From the NCBI GenBank assembly GCA_015143295.1, contig CM026560.1, positions 8,496,501 through 8,560,500 on the forward strand: a stretch of DNA of 64,000 nucleotides, given 5' to 3'. Positions 14,628 through 62,475 of the stretch are shown piece by piece; positions within the stretch are counted from its first letter, which is position 1, and every line of letters begins with the position of its first letter. The stretch comes from Tetracentron sinense (taxonomy: Eukaryota; Streptophyta; Magnoliopsida; Trochodendrales; Trochodendraceae). The translations under genes were made by a program, and so were the position numbers. The notes below the pieces were generated by a model. It ran no database searches and was not told where the DNA came from. It worked only from the letters and a program-made list of their open reading frames with translations.

Positions 14628-15215
14628 TTAGGGGACGTGGGCTTCACTACTGGCCATGGCCGGGGCAGAATCCATCAAGCTGGCAGCAATCGCAGCCTTC
14701 AAATCCTCATCTTCCATGTCCAAAAGCATTTCCTCTTCCCTAGACGTCTGAGAAGGATCAGAATATGTCTGAGACAGATTATACCACTCCCCATCTACTT
14801 TCCTGATGCAGAACCAATGGTCCTGCGAGTGACAGATGAATGAATTTTCCAGCTCGGGGTCAATCTGGGCAGGCTCTGCAACTGGACAGTTGAGGGGGGT
14901 GACCTGCAGATCCCATACCTCCAGAGCCTTCTGCAAAACCTGGATGCTGAAATCACCGTCCATGGAAACATTATGAGACTCCTCTGAATCGAACCGAAAG
15001 AAATCATCGGAGACGGTACCGCCTTCAAGCATCATCTGCTGCTCCATTCGATCGAGATAAGAAGCAAGCTCGGCCAAATCGAATTCAGAGAAGAATGGGC
15101 CCTGTAATACCGTGTTCACGCAATGTACGGCGCATAGCTTTGACTCCTGCACTTCGTGGTACAACATTCCGCCATTGCTCGGACCTTCGTGACCGTGCCT
15201 TTTCAATTCGACCAT
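14628..15215 (-). CDS. Ataxin-3-like Josephin protein, shortened, intronless
   Basis: The 195-residue ORF resembles plant ataxin-3 (MJD) deubiquitinases, cysteine proteases that cut ubiquitin chains. Residues about 17-35 hold Y-H-E-V-Q-E-S-K-L-C-A-V-H-C-V-N, with the catalytic Cys in LCA and the oxyanion Gln before it. The catalytic His is in DHWFCIRK (about 131-138) and the Asn in EWYNL. After that Asn the second half of the Josephin fold and the linker, some 80-100 residues in plant relatives, are missing. The frame passes directly to E-D-E-D-L-K-A-A-I-A-A-S-L, a ubiquitin-interacting motif, and stops 19 residues later. Absence of introns and its antisense place inside a P450 pseudogene suggest a retrocopy with an internal deletion. 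No poly(A) or TSD was found. Activity is doubtful without the rest of the fold, though the frame is open. Confidence 0.75.
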   Translation of the reverse strand: MVELKRHGHEGPSNGGMLYHEVQESKLCAVHCVNTVLQGPFFSEFDLAELASYLDRMEQQMMLEGGTVSDDFFRFDSEESHNVSMDGDFSIQVLQKALEVWDLQVTPLNCPVAEPAQIDPELENSFICHSQDHWFCIRKVDGEWYNLSQTYSDPSQTSREEEMLLDMEDEDLKAAIAASLMDSAPAMASSEAHVP

Positions 15216-15346
15216 CCAATCTTAAAGTGAAGTGGGGTTGCTATGAGAGATAGTGACAAAAAATTAGTCTGGTTAAATTGTTGTGACCATCAAATTAGAT
15301 CCTTAGTTAATCAGATACTTTTCGAGATGCGAATTTGGCTATAAAA

Positions 15347-23150: not shown

Positions 23151-23155
23151 TTAGC

Positions 23156-23770
23156 CTAAACCTACAAACGCGCACCAAATACAAACCAGGGGTCGGATTT
23201 CGATCTCGTTTCTTCTAACGTGTGTATTTCAAGCCAGTCTAAATGTGGGAATTCGTTTCGATTGAATTTGAGGTCGTTTGCACGATTTGGGGACCGAGAG
23301 GCCCAAATCCATGCTTAGAAAGTATACTTCGGCCAAAACCTACAAACGCACACCAAATCCAAAATGGGGGTTGGATTTCGATGACGTTTCTTCTAACATG
23401 TGTATTTCGACCAAACTTGCCTAATTTGGGCACCGAGTGGCCCGAAATCCATACTTAGAAAGTATACTTCGGCCTAAACCTACAAACGCCAACCAAATCC
23501 AAACCAGGGGTCAGATTTCGACGTCGTTTCTTCTAACGCTTGTATTTCGACCCAACCTAAGTGTGGGAATTCATTTCAATAGAATCTGAAATCATTTGCC
23601 CGATTTGAGTATCGAGAGGCCCGCAATTAGGAAGTATACTTTGGCCTAAACCTACAAATGCACACCAAATACAAACTGGAGGTCAGATTTCAATGTCGTT
23701 TCTTCTAACGTGTGTATTTCGACCTAACCTAAGTGTGAGAATTCATTTTGATGGAATCCGAGGTCGTTTG
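23156..23770. repeat. Satellite array, left part, monomer about 178 bp
   Basis: Monomers start at CCTACAAACG at 23161, 23339, 23479 and 23651; the second lacks about 38 bp. Conserved parts include GGGGTCGGATTTCGAT, TTTCTTCTAACGTGTGTATT, GGAATCCGAGGTCGTTTG and GAAAGTATACTTCGGCC. The array stops mid-monomer at GTTTG (23766-23770), the TSD of the large nest, and resumes at 46377. Confidence 0.92.
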
Positions 23771-26403
23771 TGAAAGTATGCCTCTTTAATTTTAGAAAAA
23801 AAGTTCTTGGGGGGCATACATCGAATCCTAAGATCTGACTAGGATTCTAATTGATTTTATTCAATGAGAGTTAAAATCACAATCACCTTTGCGACTTTGA
23901 AATTATTAAGTCAATTCCACGATAGAATGCTAGACCGGCAAAACTTCACAAGTGTCAAGTCTCCTTCGCAATCCACATGGACCTTCTTTTTCTTTAAAGC
24001 TTTCTCTAATGGAAGCTAATGGCCCTTCCAAATTTCCAGCTCTAGGATCTTTAATAAAAGATCCAATCTTTTTAATCAAGAACATTGATCTTCTTCTTCT
24101 TGAAATTCAAACCTTAGAACACAAGAGAAGAGGGGGAGGGGAGAGGTGACCGTACAACTTTGAGTAAGGGAGAGAGGGGCGTGAGATTGAGGAGAAAGGG
24201 AGAAAGAAAAATCTGGAATTAATTATTCTCCCAATGCTTGGACGTCCACCCATATATAAAGGGTTTGCTTGGGTTGCTTGCAACCCAAGACTCCTAATCC
24301 TTATCCAATAAGGATTCCTCAATTGTTTCTATTCTTGATTTCTCCTAATTAATTAGGTTTAATCATTAATAGAAACTAACCTTATCCATTAGTAACCAAC
24401 TAACCATATCCTTATCCAATAAGGAATCTTAATTAGTAACTAATTAATAATTAGTAACAAACTAATGGAATCCCTAATAATTAGGGAATCTTTAATTAGT
24501 AACTAACTAACTAACTAACTAACCTTATCCAATAAGGAGAGTAGTCATTAGAACTAATTAAATTAGGTCTCCTTGAAGTGGGCGACCCACCCTAGGTGGG
24601 CCCCACTCCTACATGCCCCCTTTGAGGGTTCCAAACCCTATATGGTCTCTTATGATCTTTTGTCATAATTGTAAGCACCCAATTTTTACACCCCATCTAA
24701 CCATGGTTAAAGTCTTTTTTACCATGGTTATCCTCTGCCAAATCCCCTAAAACCTAGGCAAACCCTTACTGCAAAACCTAGCCCTAGGTGAACCTAGCTG
24801 AAGCCCTAATCTAAGCCCTAGAGCCCTTAGGGCTTGAACCCAAAGTCCATTGCCCATAGGGCCTGAACCCTTCACTGGACCCACAAGATCCAAAAATCCT
24901 AAAGCCCAAACTCCCTAGACTGAGTGTGCTTGGGCTAGGCCTTGTACATTTAAAAATTGCTTATTGGCGGTAGAATGTTTACCGCCAATTTAAAAATGGT
25001 CTGTTTTCATATTGTCGGTAGACCTTCTACCGATACCCTACGAGTTTCGGGTTTACAACACTGCAAACGCCTTGCACACTCCACCCTCACTTCATCCTTC
25101 ACCTCAAGCCTCTCACACGACCTTCCCTTGGTCCAACCACCTCTTCCCCCTTCTCCTTAATCCCTTGTAGGTCCTCAATGGTTTTCCCTATGAAACCCAA
25201 TCCCCCTCCTGTGCAAACGATCGAATTTCTTCATACTCGAACCTCTGCTGGAAAATAAAGGTTAAACCCCTGTCCTCATCTGCCTAAAGCTTTGGTGAGG
25301 TCCCTGAGATCACCTCAACTCTCTCCTTGCCTGTGCAGCACCCCCATTATAGCACCACCACCACTGCCACCACCCCTCTTCGGCAAGAGCAGAGCAGGGT
25401 AGGGCCCTACCCTCCCCACTTTTTCTTCCTTTTTGAACTGCTATGAGCCCTTGGTCAGTTCCAGGGGAGTTATTTACTGTTCATTGCTAGTTTTTAGTGT
25501 GTAGTTTGAACCCAACAGGGTGTTCACCCACCTTGTTCATAGGTGTGGTGAACCCCAATAGGTAGAGCACTTTTCATGAAGCTTGGCGGACCTTCACAGA
25601 CCCTCTGGGGGTCCCTCACATCAAGAGAGAACCCTTGGACATACCTGTGCACAGCCCTTATGGGCAAAATCTGATTTTTTTGCAAAATCAAGAATGACGG
25701 TAATCTCAGTACCGCCATTCCTGGCACACTCTGTTACAAGTTTTTTTTGGCCTACTTAGGTGGGCCCTGGTCCATATCCAGGGCCCAAGTTGAACTCCTC
25801 TCACTCCCCTGGACCAGACCTGGTCCTTCCAGGTCCTTGGATTAGCCTTAACCATGGTTAAATTCAAGAGCAAGCAAACTGTGCATTTTGCCGGTAAAGC
25901 TTCTACCGCCAATCTGTTTCTGGCCTATTTCAGTATTGGTGGTAGAATAATTACTACCAATATGTGTTTCTGTGCACAGTGCCTTTGGACCTCAGTGGGA
26001 CCCACTCCAGGCATCCCCTGGGGCCCACACCAGAGTCAAAATGTTCCAAGGAGTCCCCTCTACACTCTCCCGATCTCAGATCACCCTGCGTTACATCTTA
26101 ACTGTAACGCCCCAAAATACCCCCTAGGAGTTAGGATACTTTGGCGATGTGACCTAACCTTAAATCAACCTGCAAGAGTATACAAGGCATGCAAAATAGA
26201 GAACTAGAAATTTCTTTAAATACTTAACTATATTCCAAGTGCATTTGATTACAATAATTAAATAGGATTTACAACATAAACATGAACTCCTCCACTTGAG
26301 TCCCAACTCAAGTGAGACAACATCCCCAAACACAAGAACCCAAATACAAGTCTCTCTCGCTAACTCATCCCAACCATTGACCATATGCCAAGCCGCCTAA
26401 TAT

Positions 26404-26496
26404 CTAGGTAACCATCCGAAGGATCTCCTGCTCACACCGAGCTACCTCGATCCAAGGGACAAGAGTCCACAAATCGCATACTGTACCTGCCGACAT
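26404..26496 (-). CDS. LTR leader micro-ORF, 30 codons, intact
   Basis: It starts ATGTCGGCAGG 11 nt after the conserved CTGAG stem-loop and encodes M-S-A-G-T-V-C-D-L-W-T-L-V-P-W-I-E, then a charged tail, ending TAG. It aligns with the 39-codon micro-ORFs of E1 and of the LTR at 47474 at the start (M-S-A), at a hydrophobic centre after Asp, and at P-W-(V/I)-E. No known function. The support is conservation in other LTRs, not length. Confidence 0.5.
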   Translation of the reverse strand: MSAGTVCDLWTLVPWIEVARCEQEILRMVT

Positions 26497-26816
26497 AAAA
26501 AGTACGGCTGAGCATGGAATACTCAGCGAGTACAAGCTACTAGCTAACAATAGTAATAACATTAATATGTCATACATGATACAGTTCATCAAAGGTACAT
26601 AATCAGAGTGCGGAAGCTAAAAGAAATAATAATGTAAAGGAAATCATGAATAACATATTTTAACTCATGCATTGTAAACTTGTATTCAAAAGTCATGACT
26701 TGTTCTTGATAATACTTCTTGTGATTTTCCGAAACTCATTTGCCGTATTTACAACTTATTCTCGTCTTATTCTTGTATCGTGGGAATCACACATGCTTTG
26801 TTTCGTTCTTGTTTAG

Positions 26817-27325
26817 CTAGTACCCGAACTATGAACTGGACGGACATACTAGGTTCTTGCTTTCCTTTGCTAATGCCCGGACTATAATGGAACGGAACAC
26901 ATTAGCACCATGCTTACTAATGCCCGGACTATGATTGAACGGAACACGTTAGTATCCTTATCTTGACTTGACTAGTGCCCGGACTATGGTTGAACGGAAC
27001 ACACTAGTTATCATTGTTTACTAATGCCCGGACTATAATTGAACGGAACACATTAGTACCATGCTTACCAATGCCCGGACTATGATTGAACGGAACACAT
27101 TAGTATCTTTCCTGTTTTACTTTGCTAATGCCCGGACTATAATGGAACGGAACACATTAGCCTCATGCTTGACTTGACTAGTGCCCGGACTATGGTGGAA
27201 CGGAACACACTAGTTATTCTTGCTTACTAATGCCCGGACTATGATTGAACGGAACACATTAGTAACTTCACTTGTTTCACTTGCTTAGCTAATGCCTAGA
27301 CTATGATGGAACGGAACACATTAGC
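26817..27325 (-). repeat. Tandem array of ten covarying hairpins in LTR U3
   Basis: Ten units, each with arms of 6-9 bp around a conserved 24-nt loop (starting CCCGGACTAT, ending ACGGAACA). Arm pairs on the plus strand include TGCTAATG/CATTAGCA, TACTAATG/CATTAGTA and ACTAGTG/CACTAGT, alternating irregularly. Unit 3 has a G-T wobble and unit 6 one A-C mismatch. In reverse complement the loop begins TGTTCCG and ends CCGGG, like the loops at 24-453 (TACTAAG...ACGGG), so the arrays are homologous. Confidence 0.93.
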
Positions 27326-29726
27326 ATCTTCATTTCCTTGATTATCGTGTTTTCTTGTGAGCCAGGTATGACATATCCTAGGGATATGCCCTACCCTTGA
27401 CATTCATGTTAATTTAACTTGTGAGCCAGAGGCTAGCACCCGCACATCCCTGGGCTACCAACGTCCTTGTCATATGCTTATTTCTTGTTATTTCATATGC
27501 TTATATTCAAAAAGTTTGGTTTATGCATGCGTGACAATCGCACTATCATAGATGAATCAAGGGACACATATTGCATTTCGATTCTCTTTTTCATAATCAT
27601 GTTAACATGAAACCGTAAAGCATAATATGGCATTTCTTGTAATTGCATAGGCATGGGGAATTTAATGAAAACATATAAAGCATTTGTTTTAAAATCACCC
27701 TTTTAAGAAAACTACATAAGTCATATTTCCCAATTCCTTCATTTTATTCTTGGCATTCTCATTCATCCATTTTGTCAAACACCTAATGAGTAACACATTG
27801 AAACCACATTATTTCAAGTTCTTAAATGTTCATATGTTTCATCATACACAAGGCGTGCGTTCATTATTCGTACAATGCCCATCCACCATTTTTCATCACA
27901 CACTTCACACAATACGGCATCCAATCGCCTCCATGTCCAACAATCCACATCCCATTCACCAATTAATTATCTTGTTTATAATTAGGGAAAATAATGCATT
28001 TTAAGGAAAGGAAAGAACACAAGATCCAAAAATCATCATTTTCAAGAAAGGAATCTAGGTTATTGCTAAAGAAGTTAGTAGGGTGTACTAACCTTGAAGA
28101 AGAGAAGAAAACCCTTGAAAAATGCCATGGAGAACGCTGCCCTAGCTTGGAATGGGACTCCACACGTGCTTGAGGTTGGATTTGAGAGATCCAAGCTTTA
28201 GAGATGGTCGTGGGTTCCAAAACCCCTTGATTTTCTCAAGTTGATGCCCTAGGGTGAAAACCCCTTCTCTCCTCTCTCACTCCCTCTCAAAATATGTATA
28301 AGGGTGTTTATGAACCCCCTTGGCTCGAGCCAACCCTTAAAAATAAGGGTGGAGTGGCCAAAAGACCAAAAAAACCCCTAAATGAAAATCGCGTAGGACC
28401 GATCGATCGGTGGTTTTGACCGATCTCTCAGTATTGACTGGTGCTGCAAAATGCACTTTAGTATTTTGGTCATAACTTTTGACTCGGTTCTCCGATTTTG
28501 ACGATTCAACTTGCGTTGGATTCGTCTTTCAAAGAGGAACAACTTTTATGTTTTAAAGACATTCTAATTCTTCTTTATTCATAGACAAAAATGCCCCTAA
28601 AGCTGACTGGTCTGCAATGGGTTGCGACAGCCCAGATTTGCAGCCAACCCGATCTTGGAAATCCCACTTTTGACTCGACTCCGACTCAAAATCAGGGAAA
28701 TTGATCAACATGAACCTTGAAGAGGGTTTTAATACCTTTCCAAAAATTCAGTAATCACTCGATTCTGAACAACAATGACTAAACTAGAGCCCTTTAAAGT
28801 TGAAGCAAATGCCGAGACATACCTTTTCAACACCTAGAACACCTCGAGTGTTTTCACTCTTTTCCCTTGTGTCCAACACCCTGTTCACACCTCATAAATC
28901 ATTATCCATAAGTATTTAACCCACCTCAATGATCATTAAATTCACACCGACATGCATGAGAGACTCCGGCCTCTCTATGCCTCATGCACTAGCACTATGC
29001 ACCAACAACCCATTGAAACACTTAGGGTATATGTACCCTTGATTTTACCCACTTAGAGTATCTTTACACTCTCTTTTTAAGACTCAAACCATGTACCTAA
29101 AACCCTCACTTAACTAATCATAATATCAAGAACACAATGGGAGGCCTTAGGCCTTCACACATACCATACAAGGGCACCTTTCACTGGCACTATTCATAGT
29201 ATAGTGAATTTGAATTTCCGGGGTTCTACATTAACCCTAGTTAACAGAGGTAAAAACACAGGTTAAAAACACTGTTCTTAATGTCGATAATCCAATAACC
29301 GACATTAACTTTGTTTTGATTTTGGGCTTTTATAGGGGCCCAGGCCTGGTAGGAGGCCACTTTAGGCCCTGCCCAGTTCCCTAGGCCCACCTCAAACTTT
29401 ATCAGACCGTTAACCACGGTTAAATACACCTTAGGTTAACATTTAACCGCATTTAAGCACCCCTTAACCTCACAAACTTTTAGAAATTAAATAGAAATTC
29501 CTAAAAATCAAGTGGACCATAAAACTAACTTTGGCCCTTCCCCTCACCCTGGTTAGCAACCCTAACCACAGTTAGACCCCCCTTAACTCCGGTTAGCAAC
29601 CCTAATCACAGTTAATCTCGGTTTACGACCTACCGGGCCTAAAAACTAAGTCTATCGGACTTACCTTCGGCCTACCGGGCCTCCCTTTAGCCTACTGGGC
29701 TACATCTCACATCCCTTTAACTGTGG

Positions 29727-36337: not shown

Positions 36338-36659
36338 GAGAAGTACGGCTGAGCATGGAATACTCAGCGGGTACTAAATACTAACCAATAGTCATAGCAA
36401 AACCATAGCAGTATAGGAAGCAGGAAGCATTTCACATATATAAAGCAGGAGCCATCAATATCATAACAAGGAAATAAGGCAATTTATAATCATGCTTGCA
36501 TTTCATGAAAAGACGATAACACCCTTGAAAACACCGTGCACTTGACTTGATTGAAAATACCATTTCCGTGCTTGAAAACTTGTCATGTTTGTCTTATCTT
36601 ATCGTATCATGCGTGTCATGTGTGTCATGCCATGTCATGCTTGCTTGGAAAAGTAAACT

Positions 36660-36979
36660 ACTTGTGAGGGAAGGGAGACCCTTCTTCCTAAATGCCCATG
36701 CTTGTCATGTCATGTATCATGCTTGCTTGTTCGGAAAAGTAATCTACTTATGAGGGAAGGGAGACCCTTCTTCCTAAAATGCTCATGCTTGTCATGCCGT
36801 GTCATGTCATGCTTGTATCATGCTTGGAAAAGTAAACTACTTGTGAGGGAAGGGAGACCCTTCTTCCTAAATGCCCATGTCATGTCCTTTCACTTGTAAG
36901 ATGTCCTTGTGAGATGTACTTGCGAGGGAAGGGAAACCCTTCTTATGATATGTATGTACTTGCGAGGGAAGGGAGACCC
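36660..36979 (-). repeat. Array of GAAGGG/CCCTTC hairpins in the E1 3' LTR
   Basis: Four complete and one cut unit of GGGAAGGGAGACCCTTCTT, arms GAAGGG/CCCTTC with loop AGA (AAA in the fourth), separated by CATG-rich spacers. The fifth unit is cut by the 262-bp deletion. The inverted equivalent is at 48820-48955. Confidence 0.8.
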
Positions 36980-37639: not shown

Positions 37640-38095
37640 CAAGCACGTTGAGCTGTGAATAGTGCCAAACACGTTGTGCTGTGAATAATGCCGAACACGT
37701 TGTGCTGTGAACAGTGCTGAACACGTGGTGCTGTGAACAGTGCTGAACACATTGTGCTGTGAACAGTGCCGAACACGTTGTGCTGTGGACAGTGCTGAAC
37801 ACGTTGTGCTGTGGACAGTGCTGAACACGTTGTGCTGTGAACAGTGCTGAACACGTTGTGCTGTGAACAGTGCCGAACACGTTGTTCGTTGTGGATAGTG
37901 CCGAACACGTTGTCCGTTGTGGATAGTGCCGAACACGTTGTGCTGAGCTCGTTGTCCGTTGTGTTGTGCATAGTGCTGAACTCGTTGTCCGTTGTGTTAT
38001 CTACAACGTGCCCGATGAGCTGTACAACGTACACGTTGTTGCTGTACAACGTACCCGTTGTGAGCTGTACAACGTACCTGTTGTCTGTTGCATAA
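37640..38095 (-). repeat. 26-bp tandem repeats and ACGTTGT repeats, E1 3' LTR
   Basis: About ten copies of a 26-bp unit (GAACACGTTGTGCTGTGAAC plus AGTGCT) followed by GTACAACGTACACGTTGT-type units. Because 26 is not a multiple of three and the units lack stops, long open frames appear in all three minus frames; these are not proteins. ACAACGTACACGTTGT is nearly self-complementary. Confidence 0.9.
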
Positions 38096-44012: not shown

Positions 44013-44324
44013 GAGAAGTACGGCTGAGCATGGAATACTCAGCGGGTACTAAATACTAACCAATAGTCATAGCAAAACCATAGCAGTATAGGAAGCAGGA
44101 AGCATTTCACATATATAAAGCAGGAGCCATCAATATCATAACAAGGAAATAAGGCAATTTATAATCATGCTTGCATTTCATGAAAAGCCGATAACACCCT
44201 TGAAAACACCGTGCACTTGACTTGACTGAAAATACCATTTCCGTGCTTGAAAACTTGTCATGTTTGTCTTATCTTATCGTATCATGCGTGTCATGTGTGT
44301 CATGCTTGCTTGGAAAAGTAAACT

Positions 44325-44644
44325 ACTTGTGAGGGAAGGGAGACCCTTCTTCCTAAATGCCCATGCTTGTCATGTCATGTATAATGCTTGCTTGTTCAGA
44401 AAAGTAATCTACTTGTGAGGGAAGGGAGACCCTTCTTCCTAAAATGCTCATGCTTGTCATACCGTGTCATGTCATGCTTGTATCATGCTTGGAAAAGTAA
44501 ACTACTTGTGAGGGAAGGGAGACCCTTCTTCCTAAATGCCCATGTCATGTCCTTTCACTTGTGAGATGTCCTTGTGAGATGTACTTGCGAGGGAAGGGAA
44601 ACCCTTCTTATGATATGTATGTACTTGCGAGGGAAGGGAGACCC
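44325..44644 (-). repeat. Array of GAAGGG/CCCTTC hairpins in the E1 5' LTR
   Basis: Five units equivalent to 36660-36979. The last, at about 44630, is complete here because the deletion is absent. Confidence 0.8.
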
Positions 44645-45569: not shown

Positions 45570-46030
45570 GCACGTTGAGCTGTGAATAGTGCCAAACACG
45601 TTGTGCTGTGAATAATGCCGAACACGTTGTGCTGTGAACAGTGTTGAACACGTTGTGCTGTGAACAGTGCTGAACACGTTGTGCTGTGGACAGTGCTGAA
45701 CACGTTGTGCTGTGGACAGTGCTGAACACGTTGTGCTGTGAACAGTGCTGAACACGTTGTGCTGTGGATAGTGCCGAACACGTTGTCCGTTGTGGATAGT
45801 GCCGAACACGTTGTCCGTTGTGGATAGTGCCGAACACGTTGTGCTGAGCTCGTTGTCCGTTGTGTTGTGCATAGTGCTGAACTCGTTGTCCGTTGTGTTA
45901 TGTACAACGTGCCCGGTGAGCTGTACAACGTACACGTTGTTGCTGTACAACGTACCCGTTGTGAGCTGTACAACATACCCGTTGTTGCTGTACAATGTAC
46001 ACGTTGTCTGTTGCACAACGGATGCACAAC
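45570..46030 (-). repeat. 26-bp tandem repeats and ACGTTGT repeats, E1 5' LTR
   Basis: Same array as 37640-38095 with slightly different unit numbers, showing expansion or contraction since insertion. Confidence 0.9.
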
Positions 46031-46381
46031 GTATACGTTATCAGAGCTAGAGCTACGTTATCGGAGTACGTCCTTAGTGCCTTCCGAGCTACGTCCTTAG
46101 CGCATAACCGAGCTACGATTTCTTGCAAGTTCAGACTGTTTTGGCCATATCTTTTGACTCGTTCGTCCGATTTTGACGATTCAACTTGCGTTGGGTTCGT
46201 ACTTCGAAAAGGAACATTTCTGACATTTCAGAATTTCCAATTTCTTCCTTATTTATTAATTATACCTCTTTAAAGGCAAAATGGCAACGAAAGTGTCATG
46301 CATTAAATGTGAAAAGGTCCGGGGCTCTACACTAAGAAAATACCGGAATGACTTTCGTGGGCATATATGTCTAACAGTTTG

Positions 46382-47105
46382 CCCGATTTGGGCACCGTGA
46401 GGCCTGAAATCTAGACTTAGAAAGTATACTTCGGCCTAAACCTACAAATGCCCACCAAATCCAAACCCGGGGTCGAATTTCGAAGCCTTTTCTTCTAATG
46501 CGTGTATCTCGACCCAACCTATTGTGAAAATTCATTTCGATGGAATCCGAGGTCGTTTGCCCGATTTGGACACCGAGAGGCCAGAAATCCATACCTAGAA
46601 AGTGTACTTCGGCCTAAACTTGCAAATGCCCACCAAATCCAGACCAGGGGTTGGATTTTGATGCCGTTTCTTCTAACGTGTGTATTTCAACCCAACCTAA
46701 GTGTGAAAATTTGTTTCGACGGAATCCGAAGTCGTTTGCTCGGTTTGAGCACCGAGAGGCCCGGAATCCATACTTAGAAAGTATACTTCAGCCTAAACTT
46801 ACAAACATCCCCCAAATCCAAAGCAAGGGTCGGATTTTGATGTCATTTCTTCTAACGTGTGTATTTCGACCCAACCTAAGTATGAGAATTCATTTTGATG
46901 GAATCCGAGGTCGTTTGCCCGATTTGGGCACCAAGAGACCCGTAATCCATACTTAGAATGTATACTTCGGCCTAAACCTACAAATGAACACCAAATCCAA
47001 ACTAGGGGTCGGATTTTGATGTTGTTTCTTCTAATGTGTGTATTTTGACCCAACCTAAGTGTGGGAATTCGTTTCGATGGAATTCGAGTTCGTTTGCCCA
47101 TATTT
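46382..47105. repeat. Satellite array, right part, monomer 178-180 bp
   Basis: Anchor positions 46441, 46619, 46798 and 46978 give spacings of 178, 179 and 180 bp. The first partial monomer continues the one interrupted at 23770. The array ends near a TTTGCCCATATTTCGACCC segment. Confidence 0.92.
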
Positions 47106-47473
47106 CGACCCACTCAACCCAATAGACCGGCTTATTACGCTAACGGCTACTGGATGATCATCCTTAGTGTCTGTAGCTTAAACGTCTTAGAGGTCCGCGG
47201 AGTTACTCCTGTTGGGTGATTACCCCCAAGGAAGGATTCTGAACGCTCCCGCTTACACCAATCATCCCTTTTTAGGTATGTACTATATCGGGGAGTCGCA
47301 TATACGGTATTAAGTGATCCCTCCATCCTGCTAAGAACACACTTGCATCAAACCAGCATTCATACATATAGCCTAGGCTAAGGCATAGTCTACAAGCAGC
47401 CCATCCAAGGAAGGCTACTATAAACCCTAACCTGTTTGCAGCCTATACCTATCCCCAGTCATGGTTGACTACC
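47106..47473 (+). mobile_element. Fragment of Ogre/Tat leader region
   Basis: GGGGAGTCGCATATACGGT (47290-47308) and flanking text (CTCCCGCTTACACCAAT, TTAGGTATGTACTATAT) match 58640-58760 in the Ogre/Tat element (CTCGCTTGCACCAAT, TCAGGCATGTTCTATAT). Confidence 0.7.
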
Positions 47474-47930: not shown

Positions 47931-49272
47931 TAGAATTTCATTAAGGGCCTTTTTGTCTTTGAGGCTTTATACCCTTACCTATTAAGGCTTGCCCAAGCCT
48001 TATGGGTTTCATAAACCCTAAGTAAGCCATTTTGAGAGAAAGGGAGAGAGGAGAAAGGGGATTCTAACCTAGGGTTTTAAACTTGAGAAGAAATCAAAGG
48101 GTTTAAAGACCCTAAATCATACCTCAAGGCTTGGATTCTTCAATCCAAGGTTCAAACTCGTGAGGAGCACGTTCTTCAAGCTAGGACAGTGACTCCACAC
48201 TCATTTTTGGAAGGTTTTCCTCACTTCTTCAAGATCGGTACATTATACTACCCTCCTAGTTCATATCCTCCATTGTTCTTCCCTTCTTTATTGTTTTTCC
48301 TAAAGTGTGAACCAAATAGGAGATGAATGGTTGTGTGAGAATGGATGTTGGGCGATGGATGCCATGTGAATGTGTTGTGATGAATGGAATGGGAAGGGTA
48401 TTGTGCCAATAATTAACACACATGTATGTTTTGAACATAAACCCACCTAGAAAAGCATGGTGTAGGCTTTAACAAATAATGTACACACCACATGTTTGAT
48501 GAAATGCCAAGGTGAAGAAAATGTGTTGTAAATCAAGAAATGCATGTTTGAAAGCATATGAAATTGCTAGGGTTTATGATAGTGTGATTAATTGTTTTCC
48601 TTAAATGGCATGAAAGTTTACTTGTTTAAAATTATGATATTCTATGTATTGTTGAAATCCCAAATGTCATATTTAATTCCAAATGAAAGCATGTGCACGA
48701 TCCCATGAGCACGGCATGCATGACATGGTTTATCGGCGTTTTCAAGAGTAAGGTTTAGAGGTGGGACATGTCTTACGATAAGTTTTACCTCGCTTTTGAA
48801 AAGAGGACAAGAACAAACATTACATAGGAGGGAGTTTAGACTTCCCTCCCTTTCATGAGAGCCTCACTCACAAGTGCTTATCATTGAAAGAAGGGTCTCC
48901 CTTCCCTCTCAAGTGCATGTCATTGAAAGAAGGGTCTCCCTTCCCTCCCAAGTGCATCTCACAAGTTACATGAGCATGTTTAAATTCCAAGCAAGTACGC
49001 ATGACACGCATGACATGACACGCTCGACATGATTAAGCAAGATAGACATGACAAGTTTTTCAAGCATGAAAAGAGTACTTTCAAGTCAAGTCAAGTGCAC
49101 GATGATTTCAAGAGATTTATCGGCATTTATGTGATGTAAGCATGAATATAAACTGTTTTACCTTCTTGTTATGATATGAATTGCTTCCTGCTTTATATAC
49201 CGTTATTGTTATGCTGTGACTATTGGTTAGTATTTGGTACACGCTGAGTATTCCATGCTCAGCCGTACGTTT

Positions 49273-61480: not shown

Positions 61481-62475
61481 AGATTTTCTTCATTAAGGGT
61501 ATTTGAGACTTTAACCATCACCCTTTGCCTATAAAAGGGCTGGGTTCGTGCCTTAGGGTTTCACAAACCCTTTATGCATTGTTTTTGAGGGATTTGAAAA
61601 GGAGAGGACCTTGGTGATCGTTCAAGCTTGTGGAAGATCGAGTTCTTCCTTTCCATTTGGTGTTTTCCAACCAAGAACTCACTGTTCTTGCTTGTTCCAG
61701 CCATTGGGAGTCAAACTCATTGATTTCTCTAAGGTAGATACACTCTACTACAATCTTGCAATCCTACTAGTTACTAATTATGATTCTTCTTGTCTATGCC
61801 CTATCTATATGTATTGATTTTACGTATGAAAAGGTGTGATTATATACTTGGATGAAGGTTACTATTATGATGCACTCTAAGTGTTTGATAAAATGCCTCT
61901 AAGGGATTCTATGCTTAAATACGATGATTTCTCTTATTAAGTGCATATGCTCGCATGTCTCGCATAAACCGATGGTTTCCATGGATTTCTCAAAGTACAA
62001 ACAAGGGTTTTTCACGAAAAGACGAATAATGAATGATTCTAAGTAACTCTATGATTTCTCTAAGATCGTTTCACAAGCTCTAAGGATCATACCATGCTCA
62101 CAAGGAAACTCTATGATAATGCTCTAAGATCGTCTCACAAGCTCCACGGATCACAATGAAATGCTCTAAGATCTCTAAGGTTATGCTCTATGGAAATGCT
62201 CTACGGTATTGCTCTATGCTCTATGTCTCTACGGATCATAATGACTCTAAGTAACTCCATGAACTCACAAGAACTCATAAGGCTATGATTATCGATTGAC
62301 TCACATGGTTACAGTTTTGGTTTCGAATATCATCTCACATATGTTTTCACGGTTCCCATGCTTTAAGGAATTTACGGATTTCATTCTCCATGTCTTGTAT
62401 GCTCCATGCCTAACCGCTTTATTGTTATTAGTTTGTATACACTGAGTATTCTATGCTCAGTCGATATTGTTATGA

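Follow-up and report, generated by a model that had tools for sequence, protein, structure and literature searches.

Covarying tandem hairpins in long terminal repeats of Ty3/gypsy-type elements of Tetracentron sinense

The window analysed in this work, a 64,000-nucleotide stretch of contig CM026560.1 of Tetracentron sinense, contains a solo long terminal repeat (LTR) of a Ty3/gypsy-type element in which ten hairpins stand in tandem (array A), and a second LTR carrying a row of seven (array B). The reading put forward, and given about an even chance of being correct, is that the array forms successive hairpins in RNA transcribed from an LTR retrotransposon in the sense direction, with stems kept by selection and loops kept by sequence. 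Support comes from covariation above both shuffled and slid controls in the two arrays, and from similar arrays lying 5' of the same conserved block in most of the LTRs sampled.

Covariation in two arrays

Array A was delimited by reading positions 26400–27800 and by loop matching, which recovered the ten tandem hairpins that an earlier note on this DNA had placed at 26817–27325 (26816–27325 in this work). The units are 38 bases each, spaced 47 to 62 bases, and the first is diverged, with six pairs and a G.G outer pair. Watson-Crick pairing is found in 67 of the 70 arm cells. When the 3' arms were re-dealt among units, the mean fell to 56.8 paired cells and 67 was reached in a fraction of 0.0001 of 20,000 shuffles, so each 3' arm suits the 5' arm of its own unit far better than it suits the others. 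On the sense strand 96.8% of the 63 distinct cells pair, and the covariation score was reached by none of 500 shuffles. Two-sided changes occur at three of the seven pairs, a number reached by 23 of 500 shuffles, and no pair with two-sided changes appeared when the columns were slid by 1 to 3. The arms covary, as the earlier note had claimed, although only three of the seven pairs take part. Its description of constant loops did not hold, as the mean pairwise difference between units is 0.144 in the loops against 0.20–0.21 in the arms, and the single wobble and single mismatch that it listed belong to a reading of the plus strand; on the minus strand, which is the LTR sense strand, the wobble is in unit 6 (U.G) and the mismatch in unit 3 (C.A).

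Block duplication is plain within array A, where units 2–3 match units 5–6 (94%) and units 4–5 match units 8–9 (95%). Because several units duplicate one another in this way, array A by itself is modest evidence, and the independent two-sided events within it may be as few as three. Such duplications would also suit a history in which one ancestral perfect palindrome was copied in tandem and hitch-hiked with the element, pairing then reflecting ancestry only. This is considered very improbable given array B, since ancestry alone would lead to one-sided decay and six of the ten pairs there carry two-sided changes (reached by one of 500 shuffles), one of them with three pair types. As sense RNA, 69 of the 70 cells of array B are paired, and slid controls gave at most one pair with two-sided changes; the count of further pair types was no higher than in shuffles (255 of 500). 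The contrast between arms and loops is also sharper, with differences between units per site of 0.29–0.31 in arms and 0.095 in loops. The evidence of array B is stronger than that of array A.

Genomic copies, hairpin families and the strand of pairing

Copies were sought in the 1.16-gigabase assembly, where 40 of 1,570 first candidates were scored and 39 further copies of array A were fetched, mostly 91–99% alike over the matched part. Together with the window's own copy these hold 412 array A units, with 8 to 17 per array. Comparison of the same unit between the 40 copies, limited to columns present in the window's copy, gave 23 kinds of one-sided arm change (28 cells) and no two-sided change. 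Unpaired arm changes were thus seen among copies at least as often as paired ones, the outcome that the earlier note had set against its own proposal. They are read here as decay after insertion without arm repair, and the paired changes as older, because paired changes sit between paralogous units and between families. The comparison of arm and loop substitution that the earlier note had suggested gave minority-letter rates of 0.0055 in arms, 0.0146 in loops and 0.0287 in spacers, and CpG sites in the array A loops may account for part of the gap between arms and loops. In array B copies the corresponding rates were 0.0179, 0.0316 and 0.0289, with one copy left out since its indels shift the arms (L054) and the window's copy left out as the same as another (L053).

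The arrays lie 5' of a conserved block, GAGTATTCCATGCTCAGCCGTACTT, with 13,005 exact copies in the genome and 18,029 of a looser, shorter form. Of 100 listed exact sites, all on a single contig (C1), 60 supplied pieces 5' of the block as a sample of LTRs; one piece, L091, had been fetched from the wrong side of the block and was dropped, leaving 59, to which 20 block-variant sites were added. Motif matching that tolerated mismatches placed at least two hairpin units, of four types, in 58 of the 59 exact-block LTRs (26 C, 22 E, 8 D and 2 A), with the remaining one assigned to none, and at least two units of types A–E in 10 of the 20 variant sites. A further hairpin type around TCTATACC is present in three copies at one variant site (L141). 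The 51 matches to the single hairpin F, one of them due to chance, fell in 48 of 82 pieces. Across families the arrays hold 2 to 17 units, and each family has its own loop sequence.

A transition in one arm of a stem produces G.T or A.C, and in RNA only G.U still pairs, which allows the strand of pairing to be examined. The sense strand of the LTR is set independently of the hairpins by the primer-binding site of three other array A copies: in all three examined, the LTR end is followed by GAAG and then by TGGTATCAGAGC, a tRNA primer-binding site that we take to be of the initiator-Met type. Counts were filtered by removing one F row and five C rows as chance matches, and in A, units with at least four unpaired letters were left out, as was the outer pair of the first unit. 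On the sense strand the cells divided between G.U and A.C as 358:10 in E, 151:5 in F, 65:6 in B, 29:13 in A, 11:2 in D and 6:10 in C. Among pair states, each counted once, that are present in at least three LTRs of families B–F, 17 were G.U, 2 A.C and 2 other (P 0.0004 if independent), and in at least five LTRs 14 were G.U against 1 A.C; rare pair states numbered 31 G.U against 20 A.C. An earlier count on families A–E alone gave 10:3 for shared and 39:23 for rare states. Changes outside the arms were near even, with 72 of the G.U kind and 61 of the A.C kind over A and B together (A: C>T 26, G>A 29, A>G 9, T>C 3; B: C>T 24, G>A 21, A>G 13, T>C 8). Individual pairs include one in E that across 101 units is U-A in 37, U.G in 46, C-G in 17 and C.A in 1, and the outer pair of A's last unit, which is G.U in 17 of 40 arrays.

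Fold energy relative to dinucleotide shuffles was calculated for the sampled LTRs together with eight A copies (out of 39 fetched) and eight B loci (out of 20 fetched). By the difference between strands, sense is favoured in E, where the mean is −2.50 with 18 of 24 beyond 1 and 2 in the opposite direction, and in B (mean −2.04; 9 of 10). A first run on fewer LTRs had a similar outcome, with +1.17 for the window's array A and −2.49 for its array B.

Several observations weigh against pairing in the sense RNA. The energy difference is near zero in A (−0.50) and D (−0.32) and is +0.17 in C, and the raw count of stems of at least 9 pairs with wobble is 173 on the sense and 177 on the antisense strand (51 and 100 in shuffles). 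Family C, the commonest in the sample, has its 6:10 ratio inside a stem of 6 base pairs (bp), and the two pairs just outside that stem are A.C in 126 of 135 and 124 of 135 units; on the antisense strand these would be G.U and would lengthen the hairpin. When they are counted as stem, the shared states become 17 against 5 and P about 0.008. Families E and F were moreover recognised from sense folds, so that their choice may lean to sense, and the shared pair states are few and not independent. A.C pairs flank nearly all C units in this way, for example in L079 and at 44313–44544.

For families B, E and F the evidence speaks well for pairing in the sense RNA, since imperfect pairs shared by several LTRs of families B–F are mostly G.U on the sense strand. 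It is plausible though weak in A, the family of array A, and in D, and it is not supported in C, which leans antisense. Of the two processes that the earlier note had offered, selected base pairing (in an RNA hairpin or a DNA cruciform) or the copying of one arm from the other, the former is thus supported, as sense RNA, for some families and not for all.

As to the latter, the 23 one-sided kinds of change against no two-sided kind contradict arm-to-arm repair acting on genomic DNA. Arm copying by template switching, most likely in reverse transcription, remains as a rival that is possible but rather unlikely. It would keep palindromes perfect without selection on pairing, a mechanism at RNA hairpins is described as a source of matched stem changes in the part of PMC8794818 consulted, and the absence of any strand rule fits family C. 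Template switching alone, however, would not leave shared G.U states on one strand, as seen in B, E and F, and the one-sided changes of the array A copies count against it. A switch could also leave inversions. The type D loop (L084, L075 and L103) matches the array A loop only when inverted (nominal P 0.0006), for which an inverted hairpin and loop-loop complementarity in trans are both candidates. There is also a direct match between the D unit and B (P 0.008), and an origin of D as an inverted A hairpin is for that reason not firm.

A second rival holds that the units are DNA palindromes, either dimer-bound enhancer repeats or cruciforms, like the U3 repeats of other retroelements. The stems of A and C are nearly perfect whichever strand is read (99.3% and 98.8% in A, 96.8% and 97.3% in C). 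Those of E and F are poor as DNA, with pairing of only 76.2% and 74.8% when read antisense, and covarying arms are not what would be expected of a dimer site, which would conserve the sequence of each arm. DNA palindromes or cruciforms are accordingly disfavoured and considered unlikely.

A proposed role and related systems

With hairpins in the sense RNA as the preferred reading, selection on replicating elements would keep the stems paired while stem letters drift in matched pairs, the loops would be kept by sequence, and every copy would decay once inserted. Stems that drift in matched pairs beside conserved loops usually indicate a hairpin whose loop is recognised by a protein, and a protein-binding hairpin is proposed on that basis. 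The protein would read each hairpin through the loop, and many units in a row would accommodate several bound molecules; several units, family-specific loops and stems free in sequence are what might be expected of multiple sites for one RNA-binding protein. The hairpins most likely serve as multiple RNA-binding sites, perhaps in packaging or export, and the most likely candidate partner would be Gag of the element itself, acting in packaging, or a host factor for export or stability. Unless spliced out, LTR sequence is carried at one or both ends of the genomic RNA in such elements, which is why packaging by Gag, export or stability is proposed. The proposal presumes that the array stretch is transcribed and folds in the cell, and that family A behaves like B, E and F.

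A further suggestion, made tentatively and thought improbable, is that the tandem hairpins would be a replaceable identity tag of an abundant plant Ty3/gypsy lineage, with stems drifting freely in matched pairs, family-specific loops, and arrays of differing loop type set in one and the same LTR position; its binding protein would sort the RNAs carried, including those of non-autonomous elements. Two array A elements look non-autonomous, as their internal regions are only about 1.65 and 2.77 kilobases (kb). To our knowledge the cis-acting RNA signals of plant LTR retrotransposons, especially those by which non-autonomous elements are recognised, are poorly known. With thousands of copies and several loop families, these LTRs offer what is in effect a mutational scan, made by nature, of one candidate signal, and the covariation is testable by ordinary RNA methods.

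In retroviral transport elements and packaging hairpins, too, the RNA of the element has conserved loops on stems that are repeated or symmetric; here the copies are many, the loop varies by family, and both the protein partner and the function are putative. In retrozymes a ribozyme is placed in the LTR. These plant non-autonomous retrotransposons with hammerhead ribozymes (PMC4918200, in the part consulted) resemble the present elements in having structured RNA in non-autonomous plant LTR elements, and differ in that the present units are repeated simple hairpins rather than one catalytic fold; an Rfam scan of the window found no family at gathering score, and so no hammerhead ribozyme match. 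Short tandem repeats inside the LTR are likewise described for the U3 of retroviruses and tobacco Tnt1 (PMC3601003, in part), whereas the units here are hairpins with covarying arms. Plant Retand elements, also Gypsy, possess family-specific tandem arrays, which lie between pol and the 3' LTR and are not called hairpins in the available part of that report (PMC11963269), whereas the present arrays are within the LTR. The open-access literature searched, including the available parts of PMC3212565 and PMC4379980, yielded no account of tandem hairpins with covarying arms in plant LTRs.

The elements and other features of the window

The features are collected in Table 1. The solo LTR has TG..CA termini (TGTAGAACC..GTTACA) and a 5-bp target duplication, GTTAA, on both sides; array A occupies positions 1907–2415 of its 3129, and no primer-binding site follows its end. 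The three copies that do have one contain two arrays each, about 4.9 to 5.7 kb apart.

Table 1. Hairpin arrays and associated LTR features of the window
Feature	Position	Strand	Remarks
Array A, ten hairpins	26817–27325	minus	sense unit about ACTAATG-TGTTCCGTTCAATCATAGTCCGGG-CATTAGT
Solo LTR, 3,129 bp	26103–29231	minus	ends set by comparison with other copies; GTTAA at 26098–26102 and 29232–29236
Conserved block GAGTATTCCATGCTCAGCCGTACTT	26500–26524	minus	common to LTRs; arrays 5' of block
Type F hairpin, single	27365–27395	minus	
Type E hairpin, single	27426–27466	minus	
Array B, seven hairpins, 10-bp arms, 19-base loop	17–473	plus	second LTR, 3' end at 1170
Type C array (sense GAAGGG-TCT-CCCTTC)	44313–44544	minus	5' LTR of Ty3/gypsy element with coding remains
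Matching type C array	36608–36879	minus	3' LTR of same gypsy element
Type C array in further LTR	48867–48961	plus	

The placement of the array just upstream of a presumed promoter, as the earlier note had it, was not confirmed. The sole TATAWA on the LTR sense strand, at 27980, precedes array A. In a related LTR, CTATAAAAGG at 61529 aligns well ahead of the array, and as a lead the array may on this basis sit in a transcribed leader. Splice-like sites flank array A on the minus strand, AAG/GTTAGTAC (28085–28095) and TTGCAG/GTTG (26166–26175), the latter also found in the gypsy LTR pair described below, and an LTR intron enclosing the array may be entertained as a second lead.

The related Ty3/gypsy element lies at 36–46 kb on the minus strand, with pieces of gag, protease, reverse transcriptase, RNase H and integrase (38.5–43.1 kb). 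Its LTRs align with the array A LTR and carry the GAAGGG-TCT-CCCTTC hairpins at the corresponding place. A Pfam scan of ten open frames matched eight, none of them inside the array A LTR.

Further tandem arrays are present in the 5' part of the gypsy LTR pair (37644–37945 and 45571–45846; also 38002–38084 and 45901–46020), made up of 26-bp units and of 22-bp units such as ACAACGTACCCGTTGT, themselves short palindromes. Two distant places (23154–23770 and 46377–47109) share a tandem array whose units measure about 179 bp. An open frame with a Josephin domain, at 14631–15221 on the minus strand, is probably a host gene.
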